This document shows positions 8,631 to 59,304 of a DNA stretch of 64,000 bases, piece after piece; the stretch's first letter is position 1; each line of letters starts with the position of its first letter. The translations under genes were made by a program, and so were the position numbers. Under the pieces are notes generated by a model that saw only the letters and a program-made list of their open reading frames with translations, was not told the origin of the DNA and made no database searches. Source of the DNA: Primulina eburnea (Eukaryota > Streptophyta > Magnoliopsida > Lamiales > Gesneriaceae); NCBI RefSeq assembly GCF_022965805.1, contig NC_133103.1:29006329-29070328 (forward strand), written 5' to 3'.

Positions 8631-8844
8631 TTCGGATCCTCCGAACAACACTTCGGAACGTCCGAACGCTACGTGTCCATTGGCTCTTGACAGCTCATGA
8701 TCAGATCCTCCGATCATACACTTCGGACCGTCCGAACATGCACGTGTCCAGCTGCTCTTGACACCTCATGATCGGATCCACCAAACCTACTTCGGACCTT
8801 ACGAACTCTTCGGTGCTTCCGAACCATCTTCGGTCCGTCCGATC
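8631..8844. repeat. S1 dyad-motif array (TTCGGA..TCCGAA type)
   Basis: Eight imperfect dyads of the form TTCGGATCCTCCGAAC start at about 8631, 8652, 8700, 8722, 8771, 8791, 8809 and 8829. They are mostly paired about 20-22 bp apart, and the first three pairs repeat at 69-71 bp. Some copies use ATCGGATC or ATCAGATC variants with matching changes in the other arm. Confidence 0.75.
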
Positions 8845-9277
8845 ATGACTCGGTCAAAAATTACACATTAAACCTTCTTAATCACCAATAATCCGTTAAT
8901 TACCCAATTTGGGATTCGGGCTACTACAGTGCAAGACTGTATTTGAGTGGTGGTGTGTGTGTGTGTGAGAGAACTAAACAAGGAATGCACCATGAAGGTG
9001 TTCTCACATGCTGAGGGAAGTAAGCTTCTAAACAAAGCTGATATGACATTGAAGTGTTCCCTCTAGGTTGATTTCTTCTCTTTTGTAAGCTGATATGCAA
9101 TATGTGTGCCCTTCTTCTTTTCACTTCTCAATTCTCATCTATTTCTTCACTGAGCTTCGGCTTCTATTTATATGTGTTTGGCCGAATGTAAAGTGAGACT
9201 CAATTATTGTGACTGTTGCATTTGAATTTGTTCCTCAAAATCTATTCCGGAACTTTTAACTTTAAGCTCTGATCCAA

Positions 9278-10775
9278 TGATAGACGTAGTTTTTACGTAT
9301 TTTAAAGCATTAGTTTGTGTGTTTTTGCATTGTGCATGCGTACATTTCATTTACATTTTTGTTCGTTTCAGATTAAGCATATGCATTTGATCGTTTCTTA
9401 CTTGTGCGTGACAAATTTGTAGGTAAAACGACCGGAGAACCAAAATTGGAGCGAAGGATGCAATCGAAGAAGAAAATGAGCAGAAAAGGTGGCGCCCGAG
9501 TGGTAGAAAACTACCGCCCGGGTGCGAGAGTTGAATGCCAAAGGTGATGTCAATAACATGTGGCGCTCGGGCGGTAATTTTCTACCGCACGGGCGCGGGA
9601 TTTATCTTCTGAAGAGCCAACTTACCGAAGACTCGGCGCTCGGGCGGTAATTTTCTACCGCCCGAGCCCGACTGCCGCACATCCCAAGCAAGATTACAGA
9701 AGATGTGGCGCTCGAGCGGTAATATTCTACTGCCTGAGCGCCACCTATTTTTGGAAAAATATATTTGCCGATTCCTTACCTTAGTTGGGAGGAGGAGAGG
9801 ATAAGGGGATGATTGTTGGACAAAAAAAAGGACATTCAGACATAATTTCAGAGCCGCCAGAAGCTTTGGAGAATTTTTGCGCCAAAAGTTGAAGATTTGA
9901 AGATTTTCGGGCGTCGTATTTGCGATTTTCGCCACGCCTAGTATTTCTGATCTAGTTTCTATTCTTTAAACTTTATTTTGTTTAGTTTTAATTTGAACTC
10001 GCGTAGCTAAACTTTTATTATTTGTTGGGATTTAAGGGGATCCTACCCCGAACGTTGATTTGAATTAATTTATATTTCGATTGTTGCGTTATTCTTGATT
10101 ATACCACTTTGTTATCATGTTGTTAAAGTGTATCTAACTTTAATAACGATTTTATATTGCGAGTGAGTTCGAGAGAATAACTTGTGATAAGAACGAGTAG
10201 TATAATCCGTGGATCTACAATTTACATAGACATATGAAATTGGATACGTGCCGATAGTCATAGTCCTGAGGGTCGAAAACTAGGGGATTTCATAAATCGA
10301 CATGCAATTCACTCTTGATAAATAATTAAAGACAATTAATTACTTCATTGAGTAGAATTAGTTTGGCATAGATCGAGAGGGTGTGTTAATTGAATAGGAA
10401 ATCCTGTCGGAGGCATACAATCATTATCAAACAAATTAATTAATTAACGAGGGGTAGGTGAACCGATATTCTCAACAAATTTATTTATCATTGAATTTTA
10501 ATCAATTATTTTAGATATTATATTTCATTATCGAATTTTTGACTCATTTTATTTGCATGTTTAATTAAGTATAGTAGTAATAATCAACCAATCAACTTTC
10601 GTTGCTAAAGATTTAATAACTGAAAATAATAATTGTTAAATAAAATCTTCATTGGAACGATACTCGTACTTACGTACATTATACTATTACTTGACATCGT
10701 GCACTTGCGATTAATTTTTGAGCATACAAAACCATATTTTATTAAGAATTCCACAGTGCAAGTTTTGCTCCACCA
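9278..10775 (+). repeat. E3 5' LTR
   Basis: Matches the 3' LTR at 42884-44378 along its length with scattered substitutions. It contains a four-unit dyad array and a TATA-like stretch at 9755-9766. Confidence 0.88.
9489..9744. repeat. E3 5' LTR dyad array (GGCGCTCGGGCGGTA type), four units
   Basis: Each unit is a long inverted repeat with a GGCGCTCGGGCGGTA arm, a 5-6 base spacer and a TACCGCCCGAGCGC arm. Units start at 9491, 9562, 9635 and 9707, spaced 71, 73 and 72 bp, and the arms of a unit start about 21 bp apart. A TATA-like AAATATATTT lies about 12 bp downstream. Confidence 0.85.
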
Positions 10776-10781
10776 AGTTTT

Positions 10782-10799
10782 TGGCGCCGTTGCCGGGGA
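10782..10799 (+). other. E3 primer binding site, Athila type
   Basis: TGGCGCCGTTGCCGGGGA is the characteristic sequence after the 5' LTR of Athila-group elements, usually assigned to tRNA-Asp. Confidence 0.85.
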
Positions 10800-10898
10800 C
10801 TGTTAATCTACATTTTTATTTTCAATTATTTACTTTAGCATTCTCTATTTCACTTGGGTTGAAACCTTCGATTTTTTTCGCAGATATCTCTCTTGTGC

Positions 10899-12603
10899 AT
10901 GCCAAGGTCTCTAGAGTCTGAACTAGAGACATTCGATCCCGAGATTGAAAGAACCTTACGTAGAAGACGACAACAGCAAAGACTAAGAGACATAATGAAC
11001 AGGAACGAACATGAGGAGGAGCATCACGAAGATCCAAGGATCGAAGAGCCAAGGCGCATACCCATGCTTGAGTATGCGCAACCATCGCTTGAGGGAGTAC
11101 TTCCAAGCATAGTGCGACCAACTGTTAGGGCAAACCAGTTTGAGATCAAGCTAGCAATAATTCAAATGATCCAGAACACTGTCCAATTCGGGGGAAATGC
11201 GCTAGATGATCCGAACACTCACATCGCCGACTTCTTAGAAATTTGCGATACTTTTAAATTTAATGGAGTTTCAGATGATGCTGTTAGACTACGTTTATTT
11301 CCGTTCTCTTTGCGTGATAAAGCTAAATCTTAGTTGAATTGTTTGCCTGTAGGTTCAATCACAACTTGGGAGGATATGGCCAAGGCATTCCTCTTGAAGT
11401 ACTTTCCTCCATCAAAAACCATGAAGCTGCGAGCGGACATAACCACCTTCTCTCAATTTGAGCAGGAGTCATTCTACGAGGCTTGGGAGCGCTACAAAGT
11501 CTTATTGCGAAGATGCCCACATCATGAGTTGCCTCTTGGGTTAGTGGTCCAAACTTTTTACTATGGTTTAATTTCATCTAACCAAACCATGATAGATGCT
11601 GCGGCCTGCGGAAATCTGTTGAGGAAAACGGCCGAAGAGGGATATGAGTTACTAGAGGAGATGGCTGCTAGCAGCTATCACCCTCAATCTGAAAGAAACA
11701 CTCAGCGAAGGAATGCAGGAGTACACCAGGTAACTGACTTTTCAGCTGTCACCGCACAATTAGAAGCACTCAACAGGAAAATAGACAGCATGAACTTAAA
11801 CGGGACAGCGATGCGCCTGCAAGAGATATTTTGTTAAAAATGCGGAGGAGAGCACTATGTTAGTGGTCCTTTCTATATAAATGAGGAGCACCAGTGAACC
11901 AAGTGGGAGTCCACAACCGTCCGGGGAATGATCCGTACTCAAAGACATACAATCCTGGATGGAGGCAACATCCCAACTTCTCATGGAGCGGTCAAAACAG
12001 TCAGAATCGACCGCAAGGAGGAAAATCATACGGGAAACAATCGATGTATATATTTGATCCTCCTAGAGAAGAGAAGTCCAACCTGGAGTAAATGATGTCT
12101 AAGTTTATTTCATCCACTGAAACTAGACTTAAAAACCAAGATGCATTGATAAAAGAGCTCGAGAATCAAATTGGACAGTTGACCAAGATGATAGCAAGTA
12201 GAGAGCCGGGCACCTTGCCAAGTAACACAGAGACAAATCCAAAAGAGCAAGTGAAGGCCATCGAGTTGAAGAGTGTGAAGTTTTAGAGTCAAGAGAAAAA
12301 GAGAAAACTCAAAAATTGGATGAGCATTCTGAAACATCCAAAGATAAGTCCTCTAACTCTACACCAGCACCCATTGCACAACCTAAAATTGTTATTCCTC
12401 CACCTTTTCCTGAAGCACTGAAAAAAGCAAAACTAGATGCACAATTCGGTAAGTTTCTCGAGGTATTCAAAAAATTGCATATCAATATTCCTTCTGCCGA
12501 TGCTTTGATGCAAATGCCTAGTTATGCTAAATTTTTGAATGATATATTCGCAAATAAGAGGAAGTTGGAGGATGACATGACGGTGAATCTTACTGAAAAT
12601 TGA
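10899..12603 (+). pseudogene. gag: E3 gag pseudogene (Athila type)
   Basis: The ATG at 10899 begins an Arg/Glu-rich leader, then the capsid block with FGGNALDDPNTHIADFLE and later AFLLKYFPPSKT, characteristic of Athila gag. A TAG at 11331-11333 replaces an expected Trp and a TAA follows at 11835-11837. The frame shifts near 11890, where a degraded CCHC region should lie, and again near 12290. The stretch from about 12092 to 12286 is predicted to form a coiled coil (KNQDALIKELENQIGQL). Confidence 0.82.
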
Positions 12604-12609
12604 TCTACT

Positions 12610-13196
12610 TTGGTGCAAAACAAGATCCCACCGAAACTTAAGGAACCAGGGAGTTTTTCTATTCCTTGCATTATTGGAGATGTTGTTTTTCATAAAGCGT
12701 TATGTGATCTTGGTGCAAGTATTAACCTGATGTCTCTTTCTGTGTTTAGGAAACTTGGATTGGGAGAACCTAAGCCAACGCGGATGTCTTTACAACTAGC
12801 TGACAGATCTGTCAAGTACCCCCACGGAGTGATTGAGGATGTGCTAGTGAAAGTAGATAAGTTTATTTTTCCTGCTGATTTCATGGTGCTCGACATGGAA
12901 GAGGATATGAAGAAGCCATTGATTTTGGGGAGATCATTCCTTGCGACTGGCAAGGCCCTAATTGATGTTCAAGAAGGGAAGTTGAGATTGAGAGTGGGCA
13001 AGGAAGAGATTACTTTTGATGTTTTTAATGCACTTAAGCACACACTGCATTCTGATAGTTAATATAGAATTGATGTTGTTGATGCTCTCGTGTCTAACTA
13101 TGTGCAGGATGCTCTTGGGGACCCTTTAGAAGCCACCCTCACAATTGAATTGGAGGATGACGACTTGGACGAAGAAAAAGCTGAAATAGTGGCATA
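12610..13196 (+). pseudogene. E3 aspartic protease region (Athila type)
   Basis: The frame from 12610 to 13062 carries the Athila protease pattern: ALCDLGASINLMS near residues 31-43, with Asp-Leu-Gly in place of the usual Asp-Ser/Thr-Gly, and later ILGRSFLATGKALIDV. A TAA stop ends it at 13060-13062, but related coding sequence runs on to 13196. There E4 inserted, and the polyprotein continues after 34153. Confidence 0.82.
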
Positions 13197-13358
13197 CTTT
13201 ATGTAATGCCCGCGAATTTAGTTTGATACTTTAGAGTTGTTATGTACTATGAATAAGGGAATGAAAGAACAGACATGAAGAAGCGACGTTGCCATTGAGT
13301 TTAGTTGCAAAGTGTATTCTTGGAGAAGAAAGGACAGTGAACCCACACCAGAAAAGCC

Positions 13359-13630
13359 ACCGCACCTGCGGTAAATGAACAGAGACCAGACCGCACCCGC
13401 AGTAGAAAAGATAGCGCACCCGCGGTCGTTTTTTCTGAATTTGGGGAAGAGTTACAGCAGGCTCAGCGCACCAGCGGTGTGAAACAGAGCGCACCCGCGG
13501 TGCTGCTATAGTAGGGTCAGCGCACCCGCGGTATTTGACTGAGCACACCTGCGGTCGTTGATTATAGAATTTTGGATGGGAGGCCGTGAGCTTAGCGCAC
13601 CCGCGGTCTAGGAATGAGCGCACCCGCGGT
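13359..13630. repeat. E4 5' LTR dyad array (ACCGCACCCGCGGT type), nine motifs
   Basis: A 14-bp motif with ACCGC and GCGGT arms starts at 13359, 13390, 13413, 13465, 13488, 13519, 13542, 13594 and 13617. Spacings run 31, 23, 52, 23, 31, 23, 52, 23, so motifs come in 23-bp pairs with 75-bp and 129-bp higher-order periods. Several copies have AGCGC in the first arm. Confidence 0.88.
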
Positions 13631-14520
13631 GCGACGCACAGAATGGAAAATGAACCATGTGTCTTGGCCATGCAATATTAGTGCTGAATCTTCATTTCTA
13701 GCCTTGGATTACCGAGAGACAAGAGAGAAAAGCTTCATGAATCCTCAAATTTCTTCAAGTTTGGATTGGTTATTATGAAGAATCCAACCAACCGAATTTT
13801 AATCCGAGTATAGAGTATTGCTCCTTTCATCACAAGCTTGAAAAGGATGTAAGTATCTTTACATTTCAGTATGTTTTGAAGTTGAAAGGTTGGGGGAAAT
13901 TTTGATATGATTGAGATTATGTGTTCTTATGATTATTAGGAAGCTAGATTCGAAAATGAATTGAAGAAATATTACCGTACATGATTGTTATGATTTTCCA
14001 GCATGTATTAAGTTGAGATGATGCAGATTTCAGCATAGTACATGGTAGTCTTGAGGATTATGATTTGTTGAGATTTGATTATTGTCGTTTGAGTTAACCG
14101 GTATCGAGAAATTACGTCGTTATGCCGTCAAAATACACCGAGACAGAACATTGTTATGAACATGTATTGGTTTGAGTTGTGGATTGATATTGTGCATCTC
14201 AACATTGCCATTTCAGATTTGGATTGACAGATTTGATACCCCGACTTCGAGATTTCGACTTATTCCAACGAAAAGAAGGTATAATTCATGTTGATTCGGG
14301 AAGATACAACTCGAATTAGATTTGATTCAAGTTTCCCAAAATCACATAATAGATCTCTATACTTTGCTATGTTTGTACTTGATATTGATTTATATACAAG
14401 CATTGAGATAGGAGAGTCATTGGAAGATATGCCAAGTTCTAGACGTTCGGTGGTATCGAGGCATAGGAGAAGATCGAATCTGATTGTAGATATTCGATAC
14501 AGACAGGGCCGAAGTCTAGG

Positions 14521-29510: not shown

Positions 29511-30447
29511 CTCTATAGAATCGGATAATCGAGTAAAGAGTGTTTAGAATGGGGGGTTGAATAAACACTCCTCGAATTTAAAATATTCTTCGACAATATA
29601 AATTCAGTTCTGTTACAAACTGAAACTGAATATCCCTTCGGTCAATAACAATCAGTTAAACTGAATAAAATAGTTGTGGAAAACTAACTGACTGAAAGAT
29701 AGACTATCTAACTGAAAATGATAACTGAAGTAATGACACCACAATTTGTTTCTGGATGTTCGGAGAATTGAATAACTCCTACGTCACCCCTTCTATCACG
29801 AAGATAGGATATCCACTAAAAGACTTTGATCAAATACACGACACTGTACTGACCCACTTCAGTTTGGACTTATCACTTTGCCAAAACTGAAACTCTTAGC
29901 ATACAATACTTTTATAGATCGTAACAGATCTTTAGCACAACTTAGAAAATCTATCAACAATTTCAAAGTGTTATTTAAGCTCGAGAATATAGTCTTGAAT
30001 ACTACTGATAAGACTAATAAGCGTGAGCTTTTATACCTGATTGTGAGTAGATATTTTTGCAGCGTAATAGCAATTAGAATGAGATAACTGAAAGTCGGTG
30101 ATTCTTCAGTTGCTGCCTTCGACTATTTATAGGCTTTCCTCTCAACGGTAACATCAAAGAATATTTGAATATTTTAACCGTTGATTGCCACGTCGATATA
30201 TTCTGACAATCGTATACTGTTCATTCTGGAATGCGGCGTTCCACTACTAGTTGCAGGTATATGTACTATTTTGTCTGTTGTCGCTTTCAACTTATGACGT
30301 GTACAACTGAGAGGTCAGCTGGTAATGAATCAGTTGCCGAGAATGAACTTCAGTTGAGCAGATGACGTGTTCAGTTGATGATCAGTTCAGTTTCTGAGTT
30401 CAGGTGGTAAGTCTTTTTGTCAAAACACCGGAATTAAGTTTCCAACA
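29511..30447 (-). repeat. Copia 5' LTR (right copy)
   Basis: Nearly identical to 19362-20283, with TGTTGG at its outer end. Its inner end reads TCTATAGAG instead of CCTATCA, so the terminal CA appears mutated or the boundary lies a base or two away. Confidence 0.88.
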
Positions 30448-32401: not shown

Positions 32402-32673
32402 ACCGCACCTGCGGTAAATGAACAGAGACCAGACCGCACCCGCAGTAGAAAAGATAGCGCACCCGCGGTCGTTTCTTCTGAATTTTTGGAAGAGTTACAG
32501 TAGGCTCAGCGCACCCGCGGTGTGAAACAGAACGCACCCGTGGTGCTGCTACAGTAGGATCAGTGCACCCGCGGTACATGACTGAGCGCACCTGCGGTCG
32601 TCGATTATAGAATTTTGGATGGGAGGCCGTGAGCTTAGCGCACCCGCGGTCTAGGAATGAGCGCACCCGCGGT
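32402..32673. repeat. E4 3' LTR dyad array, nine motifs
   Basis: Motif starts at 32402, 32433, 32456, 32508, 32531, 32562, 32585, 32637 and 32660. The spacing series 31, 23, 52, 23, 31, 23, 52, 23 is identical to the 5' LTR. Some copies show C-to-T or G-to-A changes at CpG (for example CCCGTGGT). Confidence 0.88.
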
Positions 32674-33563
32674 GTGACGTGCAGAATGGAAAATGAAACA
32701 TGTGTCCTGGCCATGCAATGTAAGTGCTGAGTCTTCATTTCTAGCCTTGGATTACCGAGAGACAAGAGAGAAAAGCTTCAGGAATCCTCAAATTTCTTCA
32801 AGTTTGGATTGTTGATTATGAAGAATCCAACCAACCGAATTTTAATCCGAGTATAGATTATTGCTCCTTTCATCACAATCTTGAAAAGGATGTAAGTATC
32901 TTTACATTTCAGTATGTTTTGAAGTTGAAAGGTTGGGGGAAATTTTGATATGATTGAGATTATGTGTTCTTATGATTATTAGGAAGCTAGATTCGAAAAT
33001 GAATTGAAGAAATATTACCGTACGTGATTGTTATGATTTTCCAGCATGTATTAAGTTGAGATGATGCAGATTTCAGCATAGTACATGGTAGTCTTGAGGA
33101 TTATGATTTGTTGAGATTTGATTATTGTCGTTTGAGTTGACCGGTATCGAGAAATTACGTCGTTATGCCGTCAAAATACACCGAGACAGAACATTGTAAT
33201 GAACATGTATTGGTTTGAGTTGTGGATTGATATTGTGCATCTCAACATTGCCATTTCAGATTTGGATTGACAGATTTGATATCCCGACTTCGAGATTTCG
33301 ACTTATTCCAACGAAAAGAAGGTATAATTCATGTTTATTCGGGAAGATACAACTCGAATTAGATTTGATTCGAGTTTCCCAAAATCACTTACTAGATCTC
33401 TATACTTTGCTATGTTTGTACTTGACATTGATTTATATACAAGCATTGAGATAGGAGAGTCATTGGCAGATATGCCAAGTTCTAGACGTTCGGTGGTATC
33501 GAGGCATAGGAGAAGATTGACTCCGATTGTAGATATTCGATACAGACAGGGCCGAAGTCTAGG

Positions 33564-37310: not shown

Positions 37311-37416
37311 GGCGCTCGGGCGGTAATTATTTACCGCTCAAGCGCCACAACTTAATTCAAACAAAAATTTCCAGAGAGCTCGGCGCTTGGGCGGTAATTA
37401 TTTACCTCTCGAGCCC
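37311..37416. repeat. E3 internal dyad units, downstream of integrase
   Basis: Two units start at 37311 and 37382, and a third, split one at 37455 (spacing 71 and 73 bp). They have the GGCGCTCGGGCGGTA and TACCGCTC arms of the E3 LTR array, although they lie in the internal region between pol and the third ORF. Confidence 0.75.
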
Positions 37417-37465
37417 AAACGCTTGCCCCAAAAAAAAAATTTTCCCGAGAACTCGGCGCTCGAGC

Positions 37466-40309
37466 TGTAGCGTACCGTACTTTTATCGTTCAAAATTTGC
37501 GAAAAAATTTAAAATTTTCTTAAACATAACATAACCTTCAAAGTTTGCCATAAAATATCTCAACCAAGTCCCCCATAAGACATGGTTGCTCAAAATAACT
37601 TCAATAAAATTTGCTCACAAAAGGTTTGCTCAAAGTGTTTCCCTCAAAACATGAAATCAGAGTAAATTAACATTTGCATAAAAACATAAACATTGCGGTC
37701 CTCGGGTTAGCCTCCCGCTCAGTCCAAGCCTGTCCCTTGGTCGCCACCTCCTGTCTCCTCATCAACGTACTCACCTGCATCGATCAAGTCTAGTGAGTCA
37801 AAAGACCCAACACGTATAAACTGGAAAATAGCGAGTACTACATAATAAAACCGCATGCAACTTTAAAAATAGAACATACATACTTGAACTTGAATTTAAC
37901 ATGCTTGAAACTTGAACATCGTGAGCTTAACTTAGACGTGCCATCAACATGACCTTTTCTTAAACATTCTCGTAACATAAACTTGAGCGTATAAAGCATA
38001 ATTTTGCGTAGAGGCATGTTTCAAAGTAAGTGACCCATAACATAATAAGGCCTGATCAGACACACCACAGTACTGGGCTGACAGGGACGTATCCACTGCC
38101 GCATATATAAGATCACCGTTCATAAGTTTAACGGGTGGATTGGTCCCTGTACATAAGTTTAACGCTTTACAATCCCGATCTGAACCCGTTCATAAGTTTA
38201 ACAGGGCGGAGAGGTCCTCGGCCACGTTCACCGACTTCCAAACCCATTCATACATTTGGTCACAAAGCAATTAGCATACCTCAAAACTTTAAAATGTTTT
38301 CTTTTGCACGTCATAATACTTAATTGGCGTTGAGGAATTCGTTGGATCTCGTTTGGGGCCGTTGCTGCAACATGCTAACATGAGCTCAAAAGTTTAAATT
38401 GCGTGACTTAGACGCAATCATCATGCCTATGCCTAAGCTCAATCGCTTACTTAGGACATGCTAAAATTCCCATGACTCGACCATGTAAATCAGTGCACTA
38501 AACCAAGACATCAAACCTCAAAGCATACATCAATATTTTTACCAAAATAAGTAGTACACGGACCCCGTGCCTTGGTCCGTGTACGGGTCCGGGTAGGTTC
38601 GGTAATGTGTGCGAAGGAAAAAGGGAAGGCACGGACCCCATGCCTGGATCCGTGTACAGGTCCGTATACATACTGTAAAATGTGTCGTGAAGAAAAGGAA
38701 GGGCACGGACCCCGGGTCCAGGTCCGTGTCAAGGTCCGTGTACTCTCGGTTTCTTGGCACTAAGGAGGAAACAAAGGCACGGACCCCGTGTCAGGGTCCG
38801 TGTAGGGGTCCGGTTTGCCACTGTATGACGAAACCTGCGTGAAAAACTTAACATGACCTTTCTTTCTTCCAACCAACCCAAATGGACTAAGAATCAACAC
38901 CCCAGGACACCTCCTAGGACACTATAGCACTGAATCAAACCTTTAAAAATACTCCAATACGACTACGCATCCCAAACGATGCAACAAACCGTGAACACGA
39001 CAATTGACGAACAAACCCATCATAGAACTTTTAATGCATAGAAGTACCTACCAACACGAAACGACAACCCAAAAATCATTCCAACGCCACACTAAACATA
39101 CTTAGACGCAGCAACGATCACCCATCGATCCCCAACGAAGCCTGCAACAAATAAACTTCAAGAACGCATCAATATCATAATTTACTGAAAACGCAGTTTG
39201 AGCAGTCCCACAAAAAACACTATAACTCACTCAATTTTTATCCAAATAACTCGAATTTTATATCAAATAGAAGGTGTCAAAAAGTTCTCCATTTTTCGTG
39301 TTGAAAGTTTTCAAAAAATCTCGACCGAAAATTCGCAGTTTTAACAAGAACATTAAAAACGGGATTTAGATCTAAAAATTTTCCTACAAAGTCGATCCAA
39401 TCAATTAACCGCTCAAACTACGAACATCATACATGAATTTTTACGCATAAAAACAACGTAACGCATAATATGACATGATCGACGCAGCAAAGGAGAGATT
39501 ATACATGCCTTTTGAATCTTAAACGTTACCGAACCGGCGATACCGAAGCGGAGATGGAAGCAATGTTGATCCGGGACGACCGTGGCACTAAAATCCTTGA
39601 AGAATTCACACGAAAATTGCTGGAATAATATCAGAGGAGGGGCGGCTGCACTAGAGTAGGAAGAACCCTAGGTTTTTGCTTCTAAAAAAATAAAAGCTAG
39701 AATGAATTGTTTGTGTGTGTGTGTGGCCGATAATTAATGTGTGAAAAAGGTGTGTGTGCGTAAGTTTAGTACTTAAGGAAATAGATTTTTGCTTAATCAA
39801 TCAATTTAGGATTAAAGAGTGGTTTAATTAAATTATTAGGTATAAAAATAATACTAATCCCCTTACTTTAACTCCAAATAATTTTCAATAAAATAATCAT
39901 TTTCGAAACTTAAAACTCCTCATAAAATAAACTCCTCAATTAAAGTAACACACCCAAAATGCTAATTTTAAAAGTTTTAAACTCTTAAAATTACTAACTA
40001 AATGATTTAGGCTTAAAATGCTGAAACTTAATAAATTAATTTAAAACGCCCCAAACTCAACTTAAAAATAAAATACCACATTTTAAATTGTCAAAATCGT
40101 CGCCGATCTTTTCCTCAATCCCGCCTCGAATGATCGCCTGAAACATGAAACTCGAAAGACATTTTAACGTGCATCACAATAGACATGACTAATTTAAAAT
40201 AATACATTTAAATAAATTATGCATGGATAAGAAAATCATTTTAAATTATATAACCGATTTAACAAATAAAGAATGCATGGGTTTTACGTGTACGAATTTG
40301 GGCTCTACA
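37466..40309 (-). mobile_element. S2: large gypsy-type solo LTR
   Basis: A 2844-bp unit with ends TGTAGCG and GCTCTACA, flanked by cgagc at 37461-37465 and 40310-40314. It has no internal domain. On the minus strand it shares blocks with the E1 LTR (around GATGCAGGTGAG and the following GATGAGG..ACAGGAGGTG), which gives orientation and suggests a related chromovirus family. Most of it is AT-rich non-coding DNA. A GTTCATAAGTTTAAC-like word occurs three times at about 38118, 38149 and 38188. Confidence 0.82.
38558..38812. repeat. S2 dyad-motif array (ACGGACC..GGTCCGT type), four units
   Basis: Units start at 38558, 38631, 38705 and 38779 (spacing 73, 74, 74). Each has CACGGACCCC followed by GGTCCGTGT about 18 bases on and a second GGTCCG after a further ten or so. 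Short frames read through this array are artefacts of the repeat. Confidence 0.82.
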
Positions 40310-40423
40310 CGAGCGGTATTTTTCTACCGCTCGAGCGCGTCTGCAGATAAAGACGCGAAATCTCTTTCCCCTTTTTATTCTGCGAAAATTTCTCCCAAAT
40401 CCCTAACTCTAACCCCCCCCCCC

Positions 40424-40442
40424 CTTTCGATTTTCTTGTGCA
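40424..40442 (+). promoter_or_regulatory. Possible 3' splice acceptor before the E3 third ORF
   Basis: A C/T-rich run (C run from about 40410, then CTTTCGATTTTCTTGTG) leads into CAG at 40440-40442, about 100 bases before the ORF start. The context resembles a plant 3' splice site. Some env-like ORFs of plant gypsy elements are known to be expressed from spliced transcripts. Confidence 0.4.
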
Positions 40443-40542
40443 GGCACTAAATCTCAACTCCATTTCCCAGCAACAAGGCAAAACCCTCCTTAGGAAGCAA
40501 GAACAACCCTCTCCGTCACCCACCATCTCCGTCACCACTACC

Positions 40543-41637
40543 ATGGCTCCCAAGAAACAAAGAGGTAATCCCAGTTCCTCCTCTTCATTTTCATCCTTTG
40601 ATAGACATCGGTTTGTGAGTGAGGCGGCTCGGGCTAGATACGATCATGCTAAGATTCATAGAAACCCTATAGCCGAGAGGGGATTTCGTAGACAATTTGA
40701 GGACAGATATCTGGGGCCTCTTGTGGATTTGGACCGGCGTGGATGGGAACAATTTGGGACTCAACCCAAGGCGGCGGTAGTTTCAGTTGTTAGAGAATTC
40801 TATGCGAATGCGACAGAAGGGAAAGATGGTAGGGTCTTTGTTAGGGGTCGACTAGTTCCGTGTGACTCTGTTACGATCAACGCACTATTAGAAACGACGA
40901 AAGTGGATGACTCTCAATTAGAGGCATTGGGCGCCGACCCTGATTATGATACAATCCTCGCAGAGCTATGCCACCCGGGCGCAACGTGGAAACCATTGGG
41001 CAGACCGCCGAGCTGCTTCGACGAGAAGTATTTGAAAGCAGAAATTGCCCTTTGGTATCTATTTGTGGCCCGACGGATGATGCTGGTTTCGCATAAGAGC
41101 GAGGTGCAAAAAGAGTGGGCGGTGCTCCTGTATGCTTTGACTGCTAGATAAAACATAAATGTAGGCAAGCTGATAAATTCTTAGATCATGTTGAGTGCCC
41201 ACAATAGTCATGTTGGTCTATTTTTCCCCACCATCATCTCTGAATTGTGTACGAGGGCAGGAGTTGTCTTCCGTGAGGATGAGGAGTGGTCGCAGCCGAT
41301 GAAGGCTATTTGTGTAGATGATCTAAAGCGGAAGATGGCAAACGACACGTCGACTTCCCCACTCAGGAGGAGGACGCAGGTGGATCAAGTGCCGCCGTCC
41401 CCCGTCGCCCACAGCGACGAGAGCCTTGCCTTCATGGCTCATCAGGAGCAGGTCAATGCCAATGTCGCGACCCATCTTGCCCACCTCGAATCCATGATGC
41501 GCACTATGCTCCTCCACGGGGGCGTAGATCCAGGGGTCATACCACCACTTTCGCCATTTATTCCTCCCTACCAGCTTCAGTATGACTACCTTCCCGCAAG
41601 GGGATTCCACCGGAGTGCCACCACCGGAACACGATGA
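40543..41637 (+). pseudogene. E3 third ORF (Athila ORF3; putative plant transposon protein domain)
   Basis: The ATG at 40543 sits in a strong plant context (ACCATGGCT). The product would be about 364 residues: a basic, Ser-rich N-terminus, then FRRQFEDRYLGPLVDLD, VVREFYANATEGKDGR and EIALWYLFVARRMM blocks typical of the third ORF of Athila elements, often called env-like. Two in-frame stops (TAA 41149-41151, TAG 41182-41184) split it; both fit CAA or CAG codons changed by C-to-T. The C-terminal part has a predicted short coiled coil and Pro-rich tail. No membrane segment lies in this frame. Role unknown. Confidence 0.75.
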
Positions 41638-42883: not shown

Positions 42884-44378
42884 TGATAGACGTAGTTTTT
42901 ACGTGTTCTAATACATTAGTTTGCGTGTGTTTGCATTGTGCATGCGTCCATTTCATTTACATTTTTGTTCGTTTTAGAGTAAGCATATGCATTTGATCGT
43001 TTCTTACTTGTGCGTGACAAATTTCTCGGTAAAACGACCGGAGAACCGAAATTGGAGCGAAGGATGCAATCGGAGAAGAAAACGAGCAGAAAAGGTGGCG
43101 CCCGAGCGGTAGAAAACTACCGTCCGGGCGCGAGAGTTGAATGCCAAAGGTGATGTCCAGAACATGTGGCGGTCGGGTGGTAATTTTCTACCGCCCGGGC
43201 GCAGGATTTATCTTCCGAAGAGCCAACTTACCGAAGACTCGACGCTCGGGCGGTAATTTTCTACCGCCCGAGCGCGACTGCCGCACATCCCAAGTAAGAT
43301 TACAGAAGATGTGGCGCTCGAGCGGTAATATTCTACCGCCCGAGCGCCACCTATTTTTGGAAAAATATATTTGCCGATTCCTTACCTTAGTTGGGAGGAG
43401 GAGAGGATATGGGGATGATTTTTGATCGAAAAAAAGTACATTCAGACATAATTTCAGAGCCGCCACAAGCTTTGGAGAATTTTTGCACCAGAAGTTGAAG
43501 ATTTTCGGGCGTCGTCTTTGCGATTTTCGTCATGCCTAGTATTTCTGATCTAGTTTCTATTCTTTAAACTTTGTTTTGTTTAGTTTTAATATGAACTCGA
43601 GTAGCTAAACTTTTATTATTTGTGGGATTTAAGGGGATCCTACCCCGAACGTTGATTTGAATTAATTTATATTTCGATTGTTGCGTTATTCTTGATTATA
43701 CCACTGTGTTATCGTGTTGTTAAAGTGTAGCTAACTTTAATAACGATTTTATATTGCGAGTGAGTTCGAGAGAATAACTTGTGATAAGAACGAGTAGTAT
43801 AATCCGTGGATCTATAATTTACATAGACATATGAAATTGGATACGCGCCGATAGTCATAATCCTGAGGGTCGAAAACTAGGGGATTTCATAAATCGACAT
43901 GCAATTCACTCTTGATAAATAATTAAAGACAATTAATTACTTCATTGAGTAGAATTAGTTTGGCATAGCTCGAGAGAGTGTGTTCAATTGAATAGGAATC
44001 CTGTCGGAGGCATACAATTATTATCGAACAAATTAATTAATTAACAAGGGGTAGGTGAACCGATATTTCCAACAAATTTATTTTTCATTGAATTTTAATC
44101 AATTATTTTAGATATTATATTTCATTATCTAATTTTTAACTCATTTTATTTTCATATTTAATTAAGTATAGTAGTAATAATCAACCAATCAACTTTCGTT
44201 ACTAAAGATTTAATAACTGAAAATAATAATTGTTAAATACAGTCTTCAGTGGAACGATACTCGTACTTACGTACATTATACTATTAATTGACATCGTGCA
44301 CTTGCGATTAATTTTTGAGCATACAAAACCATATTTTATTAAGGATTCCACAGTGCAAGTGCAAGTTTTGCTCGATCA
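42884..44378 (+). repeat. E3 3' LTR
   Basis: 1495 bp, matching 9278-10775 with dispersed differences and a small GTGCAA duplication near its end. Its end is placed at GATCA by alignment with the 5' LTR. Confidence 0.85.
43095..43350. repeat. E3 3' LTR dyad array, four units
   Basis: Units start at 43097, 43168, 43241 and 43313, giving 71, 73 and 72 bp as in the 5' LTR. Individual bases differ from the 5' copy, including a lost CpG in unit three. Confidence 0.85.
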
Positions 44379-46500: not shown

Positions 46501-47389
46501 CCTAGACTTCGGTCAACTCTGTATCGAGGGTCTACACATAGAGAAAATCTACTACTATGCGTCGATACACCGAAACGTCTAGTTTTGGCCGATCTTCCAA
46601 TATCTCCTATCTCAGGACTTGAATATAAATCAATAAACAAGAAATTACATAATTAAATGTAATAACAATCTAGTATGTGATTTAGGAAAACTCGTATCAA
46701 ATCTGAATCGAGTTGTGCAATCCCGTGACCACATGAATTATACCTTTCTTGTCGAATAGTCGGTATCGTAGTCGAAATCTCGAACTCAAATGGCCAATAC
46801 AAATCTGAAATGACAATGTATAAATGTGCTATATCAAAACACAACTCAAACAGATCCTGTACAATTCAAAAATCAGTCTCGGTATAAACCGACGGCATAA
46901 TGACGTACTTCTTCAATACCGATAACTCAACAACACTAAGCTCAATATCAACAATTCATAATCTCATAAAAACACAGTATCATACTGAAATTATCCCATC
47001 TCAACTCAATAAATATGTTGGAAAATCGAAACAGCATCATACGGTGTCTGAAAATCGATCCGGTAGCAATTCTATTCTCACCATGAGCATAAGAACACAT
47101 AATCATAATCATATCAGCATTTCCCCAACATGTATATTTCGAAACATGCTGAAACTGCAAGAAACTTACTTCCTTTTGTAGCCAATAATGCAAGGATCAA
47201 TAATCTCTACTCGGATTCAAAATCGGATGCACAAATCTTTCAAAACCAATGTTCTAATCTACCTTGAAACTTAAGGATTCTTTGGAGGAGGAGCTCGGTT
47301 CTTGTATCTGAATGAAAGGGGAGAGGAAGACAACACATCAATATGCATGACCAAAAACAAGTGTTATCATTTTTCTCTTGACACGCACG

Positions 47390-47554
47390 ACCGCGGGTGC
47401 GCTATACTTTCGGCAGCCCTTTCATTTTCTGAGATTCATCGACCGCGGGTGCGGTCTCTGCAAGACCGCGGGTGCGGTGATGTTACGAATAAAATCTGCC
47501 AACTTACTGTCCATACACCGCGGGTGCGGTGTTTCCTATCACCGCAGGGGCGGT
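47390..47554. repeat. E5 3' LTR dyad array, five motifs
   Basis: ACCGCGGGTGCGGT (the reverse complement of the E4 motif) starts at 47390, 47442, 47465, 47517 and 47541, with spacings 52, 23, 52 and 24. One motif fewer than the 5' LTR. Confidence 0.87.
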
Positions 47555-47682
47555 GTGGCTTCGGCCATGCTTCAATTAAAATTCCATAATTCATGAACTA
47601 TTTGATACTTTCATCTTATGACATGCATTCTCATATTCTCCAAGTCGTACTTCAATAAAGATTAATAATCTTGAGCCTTACA

Positions 47683-53096: not shown

Positions 53097-53985
53097 CCTA
53101 GACTTCGGTCAACTCTGTATCGAGGGTCTACACATAGAGAAAATCTACTACTATGCGTCGATACACCGAAATGTCTAGTTTTGGCCGATCTGCCAATATC
53201 TCCTATCTCAGGACTTGAATATAAATCAATAAACAAGACATTACATAATCAAATGTAATAACAATCTAGTATGTGATTTAGGGAAACTCGTATCAAATCT
53301 GAATCGAGTTGTGCAATCCCGTGACCACATGAATTATACCTTTCTTGTCGAATAGTCGGTATCGTAGTCGAAATCTCGAACTCAAATGGCCAATACAAAT
53401 CTGAAATGACAATGTATAAATGTGCTATATCAAAACACAACTCAAACAGATCCTGTACAATTCAAAAATCAGTCTCGGTATAAACCGACGGCATAATGAC
53501 GTACTTCTTCAATACCGATAACTCAACAACACTAAGCTCAATATCAACAATTCATAATCTCATCAAAACACAGTATCATACTGAAATTATCCCATCTCAA
53601 CTCAATAAATATGATGGAAAATCGAAACAGCATCATACGGTGTCTGAAAATCGATCCGGTAGCAATTCTATTCTCACCATGAGCATAAGAACACATAATC
53701 ATAATCATATCAGCATTTCCCCAACATGTATATTTCGAAACATGCTTAAGCTGCAAGAAACTTACTTCCTTTTGTAGCCAATAATGCAAGGATCAATAAT
53801 CTCTACTTGGATTCAAAATCGGATGCACAAATCTTTCAAAACCAATGTTCTAATCTACCTTGAAACTTAAGGATTCTTTGGAGGAGGAGCTCGGTTCTTG
53901 TATCTGAATGAAAGGGGAGAGGAAGACAACACATCAATATGCATGACAAAAAACAAGTGTTATCATTTTTCTCTTGACACGCACG

Positions 53986-54172
53986 ACCGCGGGTGCGGTA
54001 ACTCGGGACCGCGGGTGCGCTATACTTTCGGCAGCCCTTTCATTTTCTGAGATTCATCGACCGCGGGTGCGGTCTCTGCAAGACCGCGGGTGCGGTGATG
54101 TTACGAATAAAATCTGCCAACTTACTGTCCATACACCGCGGGTGCGGTGTTTCCTATCACCGCAGGGGCGGT
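53986..54172. repeat. E5 5' LTR dyad array, six motifs
   Basis: ACCGCGGGTGCGGT-type motifs start at 53986, 54008, 54060, 54083, 54135 and 54159. Spacings of 22, 52, 23, 52 and 24 give three pairs on a 74-76 bp period. Confidence 0.88.
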
Positions 54173-54300
54173 GTGGCTTCGGCCATGCTTCAATTAAAAT
54201 TCCATAATTCATGAACTATTTGATACTTTCATCTTATGACATGCAATCTCATATTCTCCAAGTCGTACTTCAATAAAGATTAATAATCTCGAGCCTTACA

Positions 54301-54322
54301 CTAACCCTAACCCTAACCCTAC
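54301..54322. repeat. Short telomere-like CCCTAA run at the E5 insertion site
   Basis: About three CCCTAA units directly follow E5, where the E1 5' LTR has a single related unit near 647-657. The first five bases are the target duplication. Confidence 0.6.
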
Positions 54323-55135
54323 TTAGTGTCTCGGCCACCCCCCACGCCCCCCTCCCCCATAGCAGCCTCTCCTTCGGTTTTACAACAAGAAAAATAGCAG
54401 CCACCTTGTTTTCTCAATTAAAATTGAAGCAAGCTCCCTCCCCGCTCCTCCGATGCCTCTCTGACGCGTACATCTTCACGTTTGTAAGCATTAAAAAAAC
54501 GATAAGGCATTCCTTGTAAACCATTTTCTCATCATTCATATTGTATAGATGCTGTTATTAATGTATTTACCCGGGGATGTTTCGATATAATATGAAGCAC
54601 GAATCTTTTTCGGTTTTTACACGACCTCATGCATCCTTTTGATCGCAACTCACGTTTTTCATGTACTTGTGCAAGGGGATGTTGGTTATTGGTTGCTAGG
54701 GGCTGTACATGATGGATAAGGGGTTTTCACAAGGCTGGAGTCGAGGTTAAGTGTGCCAAGCTTAGGGCCAAGAGGTGTTGTGTTGAGGGGTTGGCTTGTT
54801 TTGGTTGTGGATCAGGCAAAGGGTGGAGTGTTTGGTACAAAGGCAGAACCGAGCCATGAAACATACCCTGGTGGGTCTGAGACACAGCCCAGGGAGGCTC
54901 AACCACCGCTGGAATCACCCATGAAGCCGAGTGATCGCACAAAGGGAGATGAGGCTCGGGTGATTGCGACTTCGGAAAATAGAGAGCGTGTGCATTGTGG
55001 GGCTTTCATGGGACTCTGGCCATGAATTTGTAGGTCCTGTAGGGTCCTATGGGCGGTTAGGAAGGGTGGCCCTTGAAGGTTAAGTCTAGGATTGGTAAGA
55101 TATTGAGTTGGTGCGACTAGGGTTTGAAGATGTGT
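54301..55135 (+). repeat. E1 3' LTR, second segment
   Basis: Continues the E1 LTR after E5, matching about 645-1463 of the 5' LTR. It ends at the Cassandra insertion. Open frames here have no support. Confidence 0.85.
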
Positions 55136-55305
55136 TGTGAGGCCCACGGCCGAAGAGGGCGAAGTTAAGCGTGCTTAACTTGGGGCAATTTTGGGATGGG
55201 TGACCTCCTGGAAGTTTCCCAGGGTGCGTGTGAGTGAGGACATAAGCACGCTGGAAAGACTCGTCTTGATACAGTGAGGACAGTCGTCGAATCTGGGGCG
55301 TGTCA
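55136..55305 (+). repeat. Cassandra 5' LTR, internally deleted
   Basis: 170 bp. It begins TGTGAGGCCC, then jumps from GAAGAGGGCG directly to the 5S-like part, lacking about 226 bp present in the other LTR. Confidence 0.88.
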
Positions 55306-55375
55306 AGTGGTATCAGAGCCGACCTCTCTTAGTACGGTGTGGTTCGGGGACGAACCAAGCGGAAGCTGGTGGGCA

Positions 55376-55771
55376 TGTGAGGCCGGGGCCGAAGAGGGCG
55401 GGGGGTAATCGCCGGTGCCATCAGTTGCACGGACAATGAGCGGCTCCTAGCAGGCTTCTATGTAGAGGGAACATGAATGAACCGACCCACACGGGAATGA
55501 GAGGGATTCCGAGACTGTTCAATGTAATGGACTGCACAGTTGAAGAGGGCTTAAATGATTTGATTTGTACTCCTCATATCACGAAGGTGCATCTTATTTT
55601 CGGTAGCTCATCACATAAGAACTCTAAAGATAAGCGTGCTTAACTTGGGGCAATTTTGGGATGGGTGACCTCCTGGAAAGTTTCCCAGGGTGCGTGTGAG
55701 TGAGGACATAAGCACACTGGAAAGACTCGTCTTGATACAGTGAGGATAGTCGTCGAATCTGGGGCGTGTCA
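55376..55771 (+). repeat. Cassandra 3' LTR, full length
   Basis: 396 bp from TGTGAGGCC to GGGGCGTGTCA, including the central block absent from the 5' LTR and the 5S-like domain. Confidence 0.88.
55622..55700 (+). ncRNA. 5S rRNA-like domain in the Cassandra LTR
   Basis: TAAGCGTGCTT and GGGATGGGTGACCTCCTGG correspond to the A-box and C-box parts of the internal 5S promoter. A second copy lies at about 55163-55235 in the 5' LTR. The 5' half of a 5S gene is missing, so this is not a 5S rRNA gene. Pol III transcription from such domains is known for the family. Confidence 0.8.
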
Positions 55772-56151
55772 TGTGTTAGGGCCAAAAAATCCAGCAGCAT
55801 TCCAGGGGTTGTTCGAAGGTTTAAAGGGTCTGGATTTGATGGGTTAGGGGCTGTTAGAGGGGTTTCAGGTTTGGTAAAATTTTGGGAAATTTTGGTTAAG
55901 TTTCGAGTCGATACGAGTTAAAACCGGGACCTCGGTCCAAGTTTTAAAACGAATAGATTAATTTTTTAACGAGCTCGAGTTTACATCTAAAAAATACTTT
56001 TGAATATGTTTTGGGACGTTTTAAAGAGTTTGGTAAGCTTCGGTCGAATTTAGAGGTCCAGGGGTAAAAAGGTCATTTTGGGTTTTCAGGGGCAAAATGG
56101 TCATTTTGCCCCCGGGGTGAGTTTATAGTCCTGGCAGCGTCCTGAGCACAA
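55772..56151 (+). repeat. E1 3' LTR, third segment, truncated
   Basis: Matches about 1464-1838 of the 5' LTR and stops after GAGCACAAA. The last 900 bp are absent. Confidence 0.8.
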
Positions 56152-56470
56152 ACGGAACACTATTATTCATCTCGTCATCCATGGTTAAATTGTTCTTCAT
56201 ATATTAGTACTCTAAGGGATGAGGCCAAAACACAGTTTTATACCCAATGATGGGAGCCATACAGAACACAGTTTTATACCCACTGATAGGGGCCAGACAA
56301 AATTTACAATCGTCGTTCCATATCCAATTCGAATCATAACAGTGAACCACATAATCATACTTATCAAACGATACTTATCAGAATTGTGAAAGGACTCAGC
56401 AGAATCAAAGAACATCGAACGTAGAAGAAACATATCGTACATCGATTGAGTAGCGGGGGACAACCTCGAG
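56152..56470. other. Unassigned sequence between the E1 break and E6 integrase
   Basis: No gene recognised. A 29-bp direct repeat (CACAGTTTTATACCCA and following) lies at 56231-56259 and 56267-56295. It may be the decayed 3' end of E6. Confidence 0.4.
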
Positions 56471-58998
56471 AATATGACTCAAGTCGGGAATATATCTTCT
56501 TAGTTGCGAAACGTGGTTTACGTTATGGATTTTTGACATGTCAGGCGGCAAGGCTAGCCGATAAGCTCGGGAATATATCTTCTTAATTGCGAAACATGGA
56601 AGACGTTATGGATTCTTGACATGTCAGGCGGCAAAGCTAGCCGATAAGCTAGGGTTCCGATTCTTTCCAGAATTTCGATAGGTATGACGTATCTTGGGTT
56701 CAAATTTCTCGATTTGCTGAAACAGACCACTCCCTTCATAGGTGAAACCTTGACATAGGTCTTCTCTCCGACTTCAAATTCCAACGGCCTTCTCTTCAAG
56801 TCAGCCCAGCTATTTTGCCGGTCCTGAGCCGCTTTGAGTTTCTCTCTAATGATATCTACCTTCTCCATCGTGATATGCACTAGTTGCCCGGTGACGGCTT
56901 TCTCCACTATTTCGTCCCAATACAGTAGAGATCTATATTTTCTTCCATAGAGCGCTTCCTAAGGGGCCATCTCTATGCTATTGTGGTAGCTGTTATTGTA
57001 TGTGAACTCTATTAGAGGTATATGTTCACTCCAATTTCCTTTGAAATCAAGAGCACACACCCTCAACATGTCCTCTAAGGTTTGAATTGTTCTTTTGGTT
57101 TGGCCATCTGTTTGCGGGTGATAGGCCGTGCTGAGGGTGACTTTGGTTCCCATGGCTTCTTGGAAACTTTTCCAGAATCGGGAGACAAACCTTGGATCCC
57201 TATTAGATAGTATACTTGTTGGAACTCCGTGTAATCTTACTAAGTTGTCCATGTACAAGGTGGCTAATTTATCTAGGTTTTAGTTCATTCGAACTGGTAA
57301 AACGTGTGCCTATTTGGTTATTCGGTCGATGATAACCCAGATCCCATCATGGTTTTTTCTTGACTTTGGTAATCCTACCACAAAGTTCATGGAAATGTGC
57401 TCCCACTTCCATGTTGGGATTTCTTGCGGTTGTAGGAGTCCTCCGGGTCGTTGATGTTCGGCTTTGACCTGTCGACAAATTTGGCATTTAGCGACAAATT
57501 CAGCTATGTCCTTCTTCATTCCATTCCACCAGTAATTCTATTTCAAGTCTCGATACATTTTGGTGCTCCCGTGGTGAATTGAGAACTTTGACTTGTGCGC
57601 CTCAGACATTACTTCGTCTTATCTCATCGAGGTCAGGACGCATTTCTCATCAGTTTGGAATTCTCGAGCTTTTCCTCTTGAAATTGCTCCTTAATTTTTG
57701 CTATGGAATAATCATGATTTTGTTTCAACTTGATGGTTTCTTGAAAGCATGGTTGAGCTAAAAGAGCTGATAAATTTTCTCTTCCTATGTCTCTTCGGCT
57801 CAAGGCATCTGCTATCTTGTTGGCTTTACCCGGATGGTAGTTGATTGTTAAGTCATAATACTTCAAGAGTTCAATCCACCGTCTCTGTCTCATGTTTAAT
57901 TCTTAATTCTTTTTGAGTGAATAGGTATTTGAGGCTTTGGTGATCGGTGAATATCTCGCATTTAGCATCATATAGCTAGTGTCTCCATATTTTTAGTGCA
58001 AATACGACGGTTGTTAACTCAAGATCATGAGTTGGGTAATTTTGTTCATAAGGTTTTAATTGCCTTGATGCGTAGGAAATTACCTAGCCTTACTTCATTA
58101 ATACGCACCCTAATCCTCCATTTGATGCATCACTATATAAGGTGAAGTTCTTGCCATCTTCGGGAAGTACTAGCACAGGTGTAGATGCAAGTTTTCTTTT
58201 TAAGAATCTGAAAACTCTTCTCGCATTCTTCGCTCCAAATGAATCTAGAGTTTTTTATGTGAGTTTGGTGAGGGATATGGCTATTGAAGAAAATCCTTCA
58301 ACGAATTTCCTATAATATCCAGCTAAAATCCAAAAAGCTTCGAATCTCATTTACTGATTTTGGTTGAGGCCAGTCCACAATTGCCTCTACTTTCATGGGG
58401 TCCACTGAGACACCTATTTCAGAGATATGTGTCCCAAGAAGGCGACACTTGTTAGTCAAAATTCATGTTTCTTAAATTTTGCATACAGTTCTTTTCTCCG
58501 AGTATCTGTAGGGTGAGACGAAGATGTTTATCATGATCCTCCTTACTTGGTGAGTACACCAGGATGTCGTCTATGAATATGACCACGAACCTATCGAGTT
58601 ATGGTTTGAAGACTATATTCATGAGGTCCATGAATGCTGCCGGAGCATTGGTCAGTCCAAACGGTATTATTGTAAACTCGTAATGGTCGTATTTCGTCCT
58701 GGAGGCTTTTTTAGGAATATCTTCTGCTTTGACCTTCAGCTGATGGTATCCTGACCTCAGATCGAGTTTTGAAAAGACCTTGGCTCCTTTCAATTGGTCG
58801 AAAAGTTCATCTATCCTCGGCAGAAGGTATTTATTCGTATTTGTAATCTTGTTCAACTCTCTGTAGTCGATGCATAATCTCATACTCCCGTCCTTCTTTT
58901 TCATAAATAGTACAGGGGCTCCCCACGGAGATGCACTGGGTCGGATCTGCTTTTTATCCAACAACTCTTGGAGTTAATCCTTTAGCTCCTTTAACTAT
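56471..58998 (-). pseudogene. pol: E6: Ty3/gypsy pol remnant (RT, RNase H, integrase)
   Basis: On the minus strand: RT at 58599-58964 ([11 protein letters not shown], then [11 protein letters not shown]) continuing in other frames with FIDDILVYS near 58570. RNase H end at 57633-57893 ([21 protein letters not shown]). Integrase at 57310-57519 (zinc region), 56959-57258 (core) and 56554-56907 (C-terminal, FHVSQLRRYIPEL). Two catalytic integrase residues are changed: the second Asp is Asn (SNRDPRF) and the Glu is Lys (GQTKR). Multiple frameshifts. Gag and the rest of the element lie beyond E7, outside the window. Confidence 0.83.
56484..56649. repeat. 83-bp tandem duplication in E6
   Basis: Copies at 56484-56566 and 56567-56649 encode the same integrase C-terminal segment (LALPPDMS to LRRYIP). 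They differ at a few bases. The length is not a multiple of three, so the duplication breaks the frame. Confidence 0.8.
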
Positions 58999-59124
58999 TG
59001 TAATGCCCGAGAATTAATTCCGCTAATCAGACGTTGATTATTGACATGATTGAGGTTATAAGAACTCAAATGACGAGGCCGGGCGTCGTGGCATGATTAG
59101 CCAAGAATTTTGGACAGAACCTTC

Positions 59125-59304
59125 GGCGTTCGAGCGGTAGAAAAGGACCGCCCGAGCGCCAATGCATCGCAAATTGATCTTTGGACATAACGTGTGGCGC
59201 CCGAGCGGTAGAAATTGACCGCTCGAGCGCCAGGGAATTGTAAGTTAAGTAACCGGGCAGAAGGTTCGGCGCCCGGGCGGTAATTCTTGACCGCCCGAGC
59301 GCCA
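59125..59304. repeat. E7 dyad array (same motif as E3), three units
   Basis: Units start at 59125, 59196 and 59268 (spacing 71 and 72). Arms are GGCGCCCGAGCGGTA and GACCGCCCGAGCGCC, the same as in the Athila-like E3 apart from GACCGC for TACCGC. Confidence 0.85.

Follow-up and report, generated by a model that had tools for sequence, protein, structure and literature searches.

Motif arrays with a shared spacing in long terminal repeats of several Primulina eburnea Ty3/gypsy families

Introduction

Why do the long terminal repeats (LTRs) of several retroelement families in one plant carry clusters of short motifs that differ in sequence and agree in spacing? The question arises in a 64,000-nucleotide stretch of Primulina eburnea DNA (C3:29006329-29070328 of an 812 Mb genome with plant-type retroelements), which we call the window. 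A first-pass annotation, made from its letters alone, had proposed that such arrays are protein-binding promoter platforms under selection for spacing. Here we report that the geometry shared across motif classes is real. We argue that the arrays are probably promoter-proximal cis-regulatory modules of the kind described as Sirevirus boxes, carried by Ty3/gypsy elements. Judged from sequence, the carriers and the ordered spacing would be new, the kind of module being already known. Searches of the open-licence literature turned up no prior description of arrays like these in Ty3/gypsy elements.

Results

Arrays occupy every place in the window at which the first-pass annotation had put them, in elements labeled S1, S2, E3, E4, E5 and E7. 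A spacing-blind detector, which calls at least four 10-mers within 350 bp (at most one mismatch, either strand), made 10 calls in the window: nine of the ten reported arrays and one weak, unrelated cluster (30106-30397). It missed the three-unit array at 37311, and made no call in two 200-bp block shuffles of the window. Tandem Repeats Finder (TRF) picks up only S1, S2 and the E3 internal array among the ten. The common pattern is an alternation of steps of about 20-24 and 47-52 bp, giving a period of 70-76 bp. Counted as sites, the steps are 20-24 + 47-52 in E3 and E7, 23 + 52 (also 31) in E4 and E5, 18-23 + 47-49 in S1, and 12+12 + 50 in S2.

Four motif classes produce this pattern. Inverted pairs are found on the plus strand in the Athila-like element E3 and in E7. 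The E3 5' LTR array (9489..9745) holds four such pairs, with arms GGCGCYCGRGCGGTA and TACCGCYCGRGCGC around a 6-nt centre, at steps of 71/73/72 bp; the 3' LTR array (43095..43351) repeats the same four dyads at 71/73/72, and an internal, non-LTR array (37311..37470) has three dyads at 71/73. In E7 (59125..59305) the motif class is that of E3, with three inverted dyads at 71/72. Direct sites are found in E4 and E5. Both E4 LTR arrays, a (13359..13632) and b (32402..32675), lie on the plus strand and carry the same nine sites, CGCACCCGCGGT, spaced 31/23/52/23/31/23/52/23. The E5 arrays lie on the minus strand, with five sites in one LTR (47389..47556; 24/52/23/52) and six in the other (53984..54174; 24/52/23/52/22). 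Palindromes, also on the minus strand, make up the S1 array (8630..8850). They have the form TTCGGA-N3-TCCGAA, although some are decayed; paired palindromes stand 18-23 bp apart, with 47-49 bp from one pair to the next, and the period is about 70 bp. The S2 array (38557..38816), likewise on the minus strand, combines CACGGNNNCCGTG palindromes with CACGGACC half-sites set 12 bp from each other, stepping 74/74/73 for a period of 73-74 bp. An LTR holds nine sites in E4, up to eight in S1, 5-6 in E5, four dyads (8 arms) in E3 and three dyads (6 arms) in E7. Beside the E5 LTR end, at 54301-54321, lies a short telomere-like CCCTAA run.

The motifs had been described as differing between families. 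This is only partly so: as read from the sequence, the frame CGC-N4-GCGGT is common to the sites of E3/E7 (CGC-YCGR-GCGGTA), where it is placed in inverted pairs, and to those of E4/E5 (CGC-ACCC-GCGGT), where the pairs are direct. Steps of about 22 and 50 bp alternate even where the motifs do differ. The arrays, 2,243 bp in all, contain 28 CGG/CCG dyads and the remaining 61,757 bp contain 11, an enrichment of about 70-fold. None of the ten arrays lacks such a dyad; E4 a, E4 b and the internal array have one each.

The spacing recurs in copies elsewhere in the genome, which were fetched from among the matches listed (E3, 28; internal array, 30; E7, 30; S1, 10; S2, 18; E5, 20; E4, 9). Across the 28 E3 LTR copies, 73 of 78 intervals measured 70-74 bp, and the inner spacing was 6 in 105 of 106 dyads. 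Nearly all E4/E5-class intervals (122/123, from the 20 fetched E5 relatives and five other loci) fell at 22-24, 31, 50-52 or 75 bp, and all 47 intervals of E4 relatives, from nine fetched loci, at 22-23, 31 or 50-54 bp. Over fetched loci L001-L092 (267.8 kb), leaving aside the anchors and L043-L062, the detector made 17 calls, of which two were the window's own S1 and S2, ten were E3-class (seven in L039-L042, fetched for the E3 element), one was E4/E5-class (L023; 23/18/23/52/23), one S2-class (L080; 73 bp steps), and three were irregular (one in L071, two in L092). The L080 array (2538-2820) keeps exact 73 bp steps and lies beside a stretch that looks gag-coding by eye. S1 LTR matches also stand at 1,785 bp steps, three in succession, at C16:15402437-15406355, which suggests a tandem or short non-autonomous arrangement.

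Genome-wide, GCGGTA-N6-TACCGC occurs at 8,791 places, versus 8 for a reversed control, and the E4/E5 13-mer CCGCACCCGCGGT at 54,818 places versus 1. Neighbour distances were taken from the first places listed, which lie on one contig and are not a random sample. Among the first 50 for the dyad, 21 distances below 300 bp comprised 12 at 70-72, 8 at 133-143 (about two units) and one at 105. Among the first 100 for the 13-mer, all 64 distances below 200 bp joined sites on the same strand; 48 of them fell within 22-24, 50-54 or 73-76 bp (28 were 23-24, 13 were 51-54 and 7 were 74-75), the other 16 being 17, 19, 42-47 and four longer. The proposed geometry, pairs 20-24 bp apart repeated every 69-76 bp, is borne out in window arrays, copies and genome listings, although some copies stand at 105 or 113 bp.

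The arrays had been assigned to at least six different families, and six carriers there are, but five of them appear to fall in one lineage. Identity to E5 is 76-82% for E4 pol, 54% for E7 gag and 36-39% for E3 pol. For S1 and S2, pol pieces that probably belong to those elements, given their position between two LTR copies, are 63-71% and 52-67% identical to E5. These identities indicate that S1, S2, E4, E5 and E7 are five families of one Ty3/gypsy lineage (pol 52-82% to E5; E7 gag 54%), with E3 separate. We take the lineage to be Tekay/chromovirus, from a chromodomain-like C-terminal tail seen by eye, and E3 to be Athila, from a sequence like a primer-binding site at 10783 and the open reading frame (ORF) after pol. 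Pfam returned gag/pol domains among 10 window ORFs, PF20167 in two (one below the cut-off) and no match for one; a VANC-like gene was not looked for. The window's copia element has no array by the detector and by dyad count; its LTRs, examined over two 300-bp segments, held 0 CGG/CCG dyads there.

Nine of the arrays lie in LTRs, as had been claimed; the tenth, at 37311, lies instead between pol and the PF20167 ORF of E3. This ORF (40438..41151, plus strand; Transposase_32) is env-like from its place after pol only. Relatives of the internal array were found at 30 fetched loci. Two copies on C6 again have it after pol and ahead of the PF20167 ORF, with the matched 3' LTR segment following about 2.7 and 2.9 kb further on. 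The window copy is interrupted by an S2 insertion (37470-40310). In the uninterrupted copy L039, the array is followed by a pyrimidine tract with AG and then by an ATG in CACCATGG context. The tract, ending in AG between array and ATG (L039 1380-1560), is a possible splice acceptor, so the ORF could be expressed by splicing and not from an internal promoter. At L148, sequence resembling the E5 LTR end (TGTGGGGACCCGGGCTCTAACTC) interrupts the last E4-type site; both this insertion and that of S2 sit within such arrays.

The LTR arrays sit at a promoter-like position. With a permissive pattern, a TATA-like stretch lies 6-50 bp 3' of eight of the nine; a clean TATA box is present only in S1 and E7. 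TATAAAT lies 6 bp past the S1 array, AATATT lies 19 bp past S2, and the S2-class array in L080 is followed by CTATATATAAG on the array's minus strand. In E7, (TA)33 occupies 59352-59417, where a TATA box is expected.

The arrays are also rich in CpG: observed/expected CpG is 0.95-1.45 and GC content 0.49-0.59, as against 0.72 and 0.39 in the rest of the window, and nine of the window's 21 island-like stretches cover the nine LTR arrays, the internal array not being among them. Such CpG-dense islands could be targets of host silencing or methylation that the element itself does not use, much as the non-coding tandem repeats of VANDAL elements are reported (PMC10398659) to be targets of both VANC proteins and RNA-directed DNA methylation. 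A harmful target should be lost, yet tens of thousands of copies retain the array motif, and the motifs are conserved in E4 and E5; we regard this explanation as highly improbable.

Motif rates were compared in six arrays, S1 being left out for copies too alike, and with 5 of 20 E5 and 3 of 18 S2 loci omitted for partial or odd unit number. Motifs evolve more slowly in three of the six: E4, E5 and, weakly, E3. Comparing the motif with the remainder of the aligned segment gave 0.028/0.129 substitutions per site in E5 (15 of the 20 fetched loci) and 0.052/0.191 in E4 (11 sequences), a rate 3.7-4.6 times lower in the motif, and 0.053/0.080 in E3 (28 copies). At CpG, C>T changes followed suit (E5 0.026/0.076, E4 0.066/0.126, E3 0.068/0.095). 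Conservation in E3 was 0.947 for dyads and 0.895 for array spacers. Gene conversion between units could contribute to motif conservation.

We then asked whether spacing itself is constrained. The first-pass annotation had motif copies facing the same side of the DNA. For nine class spacings chosen by the analyst, R was 0.63 with 10.0 bp/turn, 0.41 with 10.5 and 0.15 with 11.0. These values are weak and, by Rayleigh arithmetic, only that at 10.0 bp/turn is nominally unusual; helical phasing is thus not established, and we drop the same-face claim. Spacing constancy was read from net distances in place of an indel-to-substitution ratio, which end gaps in cut segments and over-gapped spacers made uninformative. 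The first E3 spacer resembles the other two no better than shuffled sequence does (p 0.5), yet the period holds at 71-73 bp; likeness among E7 spacers is likewise not above shuffle (p 0.2), with one or two comparisons each for E3 and E7. The long spacers of E4 and E5 include two groups (read from the identity matrix) that are 0.28-0.41 identical to each other and equal in length, 61 of 64 measuring 39-40 nt. An alternation of about 22 and 50 bp that persists with different motifs and with spacers of little or no likeness favours a spacing rule. Selection for the shared geometry is plausible but unproven.

Spacers of E3 and E7 resemble each other (p 0.05 forward, 0.002 reverse), as do those of E3 and the internal array (0.01) and of E7 and the internal array (0.008; 500 shuffles each). 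This weak mutual likeness fits descent from one array, and recombination may have transferred arrays among the three. Common ancestry of the S1, S2, E3/E7/internal and E4/E5 classes was also considered and rejected: no similarity stood clearly above 60 shuffles, the internal-E4 comparison scoring 13 against a shuffle maximum of 12. Within classes, array units are duplicated and lost as blocks, as seen in S2 copies and E4 relatives. The two E5 LTRs (47389-47556 and 53984-54174) differ by one site; array length hence changes between LTRs of one element.

Several observations weigh against a regulatory module held to its spacing by selection. In E4 relatives, landmarks beyond the array keep distances no less constant than those inside: 41-43 from LTR start to AATAAGG, 30-32 from AATAAGG to GCGACG, and 38 from the last site to a CATG element, which was found in nine of eleven. 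The stricter pattern GAGCGGTA-N6-TACCGCTC (1,453 places, 0 in the control) gave, among the first 50 listed, distances below 300 bp of 72 (twice), 105 (twice) and 113 (three times), the last from a single layout whose three copies follow each other at 4,867 bp. Motifs are not slower in S2 (0.049/0.047 substitutions per site, with CpG C>T higher at 0.059/0.029; 15 of 18 fetched loci) nor, overall, in the Athila-like internal array (0.095/0.077, with CpG C>T lower at 0.030/0.038); column identity in E7 is 0.980 for dyads and 0.987 for spacers; and E3 dyads, at 0.947, about equal the LTR 5' of the array (0.941). No TATA-like match to the permissive pattern follows E4 b. At the internal array the TATA test ran into the S2 insertion, and none is seen by eye in the uninterrupted L039. 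A related element with pol at 4576-5901 (62% to E5), taken as E1, has no array in the window, where its LTRs are not delimited. Finally, array copies are mutually related, and copy counts are not independent.

Much of this would suit neutral tandem-repeat behaviour, in which slippage or template switching duplicates and contracts 70-76 bp segments of the LTR, copies inherit the period, and the E3, E7 and internal arrays come from one array moved by recombination. The one-site difference between the E5 LTRs, S2 copies with three or four units, the reshuffling of 54- and 75-bp blocks in E4 relatives, and distances as constant outside the array as within all agree with it, as do motifs under no constraint overall in S2, E7 or the internal array, the weakly alike spacers of E3, E7 and the internal array, and long E4/E5 spacers forming groups related at 0.45-0.59 identity. 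It does not readily explain why the period holds in E3 and in E7, whose own spacers are not alike (p 0.5 and p 0.2), why the E4/E5 spacer groups are equally long at 0.28-0.41 identity, why E4/E5 motifs evolve 3.7-4.6 times more slowly, or why unrelated Sireviruses have the same location and CGG-CCG core. We judge a neutral origin unlikely, and the promoter platform of the first-pass annotation stands as the best reading, on the TATA-like sequences 3' of the arrays and the E4/E5 motif rates; selection on helical spacing, with its weak phases and equal outside distances, is not borne out.

The inverted pairs might instead act in RNA, as hairpins in the 3' end of the element transcript, where U3 is transcribed, serving packaging, stability or small RNAs. 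Read from the sequence, the E3 arms would pair over about 15 bp around a 6-nt loop. In E3, CpG C>T changes, which leave G-U pairs, exceed G>A (51/752 vs 24/781; outside, 71/751 vs 61/710). Covariation is weak: arm pairing in E3 scores 1257 against a shuffle mean of 1242.8 (SD, standard deviation, 5.7; maximum 1262 of 500), about 2.5 SD, and in the internal array 506 against 503.4 (SD 1.4; maximum 510), 1.9 SD, from copies that are not independent. LTR palindromes of maize copia elements are also reported as small RNA hotspots (PMC5311732). The C>T excess is absent, however, from the internal array (12/401 vs 17/452), S2 (12/203 vs 12/202), E4 (10/151 vs 8/151) and E5 (6/234 vs 4/234), E4/E5 pairs are direct and not inverted, and S1 palindromes have a 3-nt centre. 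A role in RNA structure is accordingly very unlikely.

Discussion

As promoter-proximal modules, the arrays would be clusters of predicted dimeric sites, palindromic and with a CGG/CCG core, in U3 directly upstream of the core promoter. A protein would bind them, perhaps cooperatively at paired sites, and once bound could activate the LTR promoter or counter its silencing. In the Athila-like element, the internal array might act as a promoter for the ORF that follows pol, or regulate it. E3/E7 and E4/E5 may be read by the same or paralogous binders, given the frame CGC-N4-GCGGT common to their sites; we regard Trihelix GT-2 (GCGGTAA box) as no more than a possible lead.

A broader idea can be put forward only tentatively, and we think it more doubtful than not. 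One host, or paralogous, family of dimeric proteins would read CGG-CCG pairs about 23 bp apart, every 72 bp or so, and copia Sireviruses, Athila and chromoviruses would all have adopted this arrangement for the LTR promoter and, where present, for a second promoter after pol, with the motif drifting and the geometry kept. If so, plant retrotransposons that are unrelated would share, by convergence or exchange, a single regulatory device, and its reader would be a common handle on many transposon promoters of a genome in which one 13-mer alone has 54,818 copies. Two questions raised for Sireviruses in 2010, what binds the CGG-CCG boxes and whether the ENV box is an internal promoter, become addressable in several families at once with defined probe sequences (CGCNNNNGCGGT, TTCGGANNNTCCGAA, CACGGNNNCCGTG).

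Repeated enhancer units upstream of TATA are familiar from the 72-75 bp repeats of murine leukaemia virus (MLV) and simian virus 40 (SV40) and from the Tnt1 boxes. Among retroviral and plant LTR enhancer repeats, we know of no motif family shared across lineages. LTR palindromes of maize Sireviruses and small RNAs were reportedly the subject of work by Bousios and colleagues in 2016. As described in PMC5311732, those LTRs resemble the present ones in having a palindrome-rich, fast-evolving cis-region and differ in being Ty1/copia. The first-pass annotation had named VANC as a loose precedent, and loose it is. VANC targets in VANDAL elements are likewise short-motif tandem arrays in non-coding regions of transposable elements that expand and contract (PMC10398659), but VANDALs are DNA transposons with an element-encoded binder, and their motifs are family-specific, whereas E3 and E7, of different lineages, share motif and period.

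Much closer are the repeated motif (RM) boxes of Sireviruses (Ty1/copia; Bousios et al. 2010, PMC2829016), CGG-CCG palindromes upstream of TATA and of ENV, with at least eight copies per element and called Sirevirus-specific there. Like these, the arrays described here have a palindromic CGG-CCG core in many copies, are CpG-rich and sit in the LTR just upstream of TATA. The extra Sirevirus cluster upstream of ENV may have a counterpart in the internal array between pol and the PF20167 ORF, env-like by place alone. The Inga motif AGCGGTASTACCGCT has the same arms as E3/E7 around a shorter centre; S1 and S2 resemble Osr9 TTTTCGGACWTRTCCGAAAA and HOPIE CGGACCGTCCG. The differences lie in arrangement and carrier. 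Here the sites are paired with fixed steps, the E4/E5 pairs being direct, while the covered part of PMC2829016 gives no spacing rule for RM boxes; and the carriers, Ty1/copia there, are here Ty3/gypsy, comprising a chromovirus-like lineage and an Athila-like element. Hence the arrays look and sit like Sirevirus RM boxes but, carried by gypsy elements, are not Sirevirus boxes.

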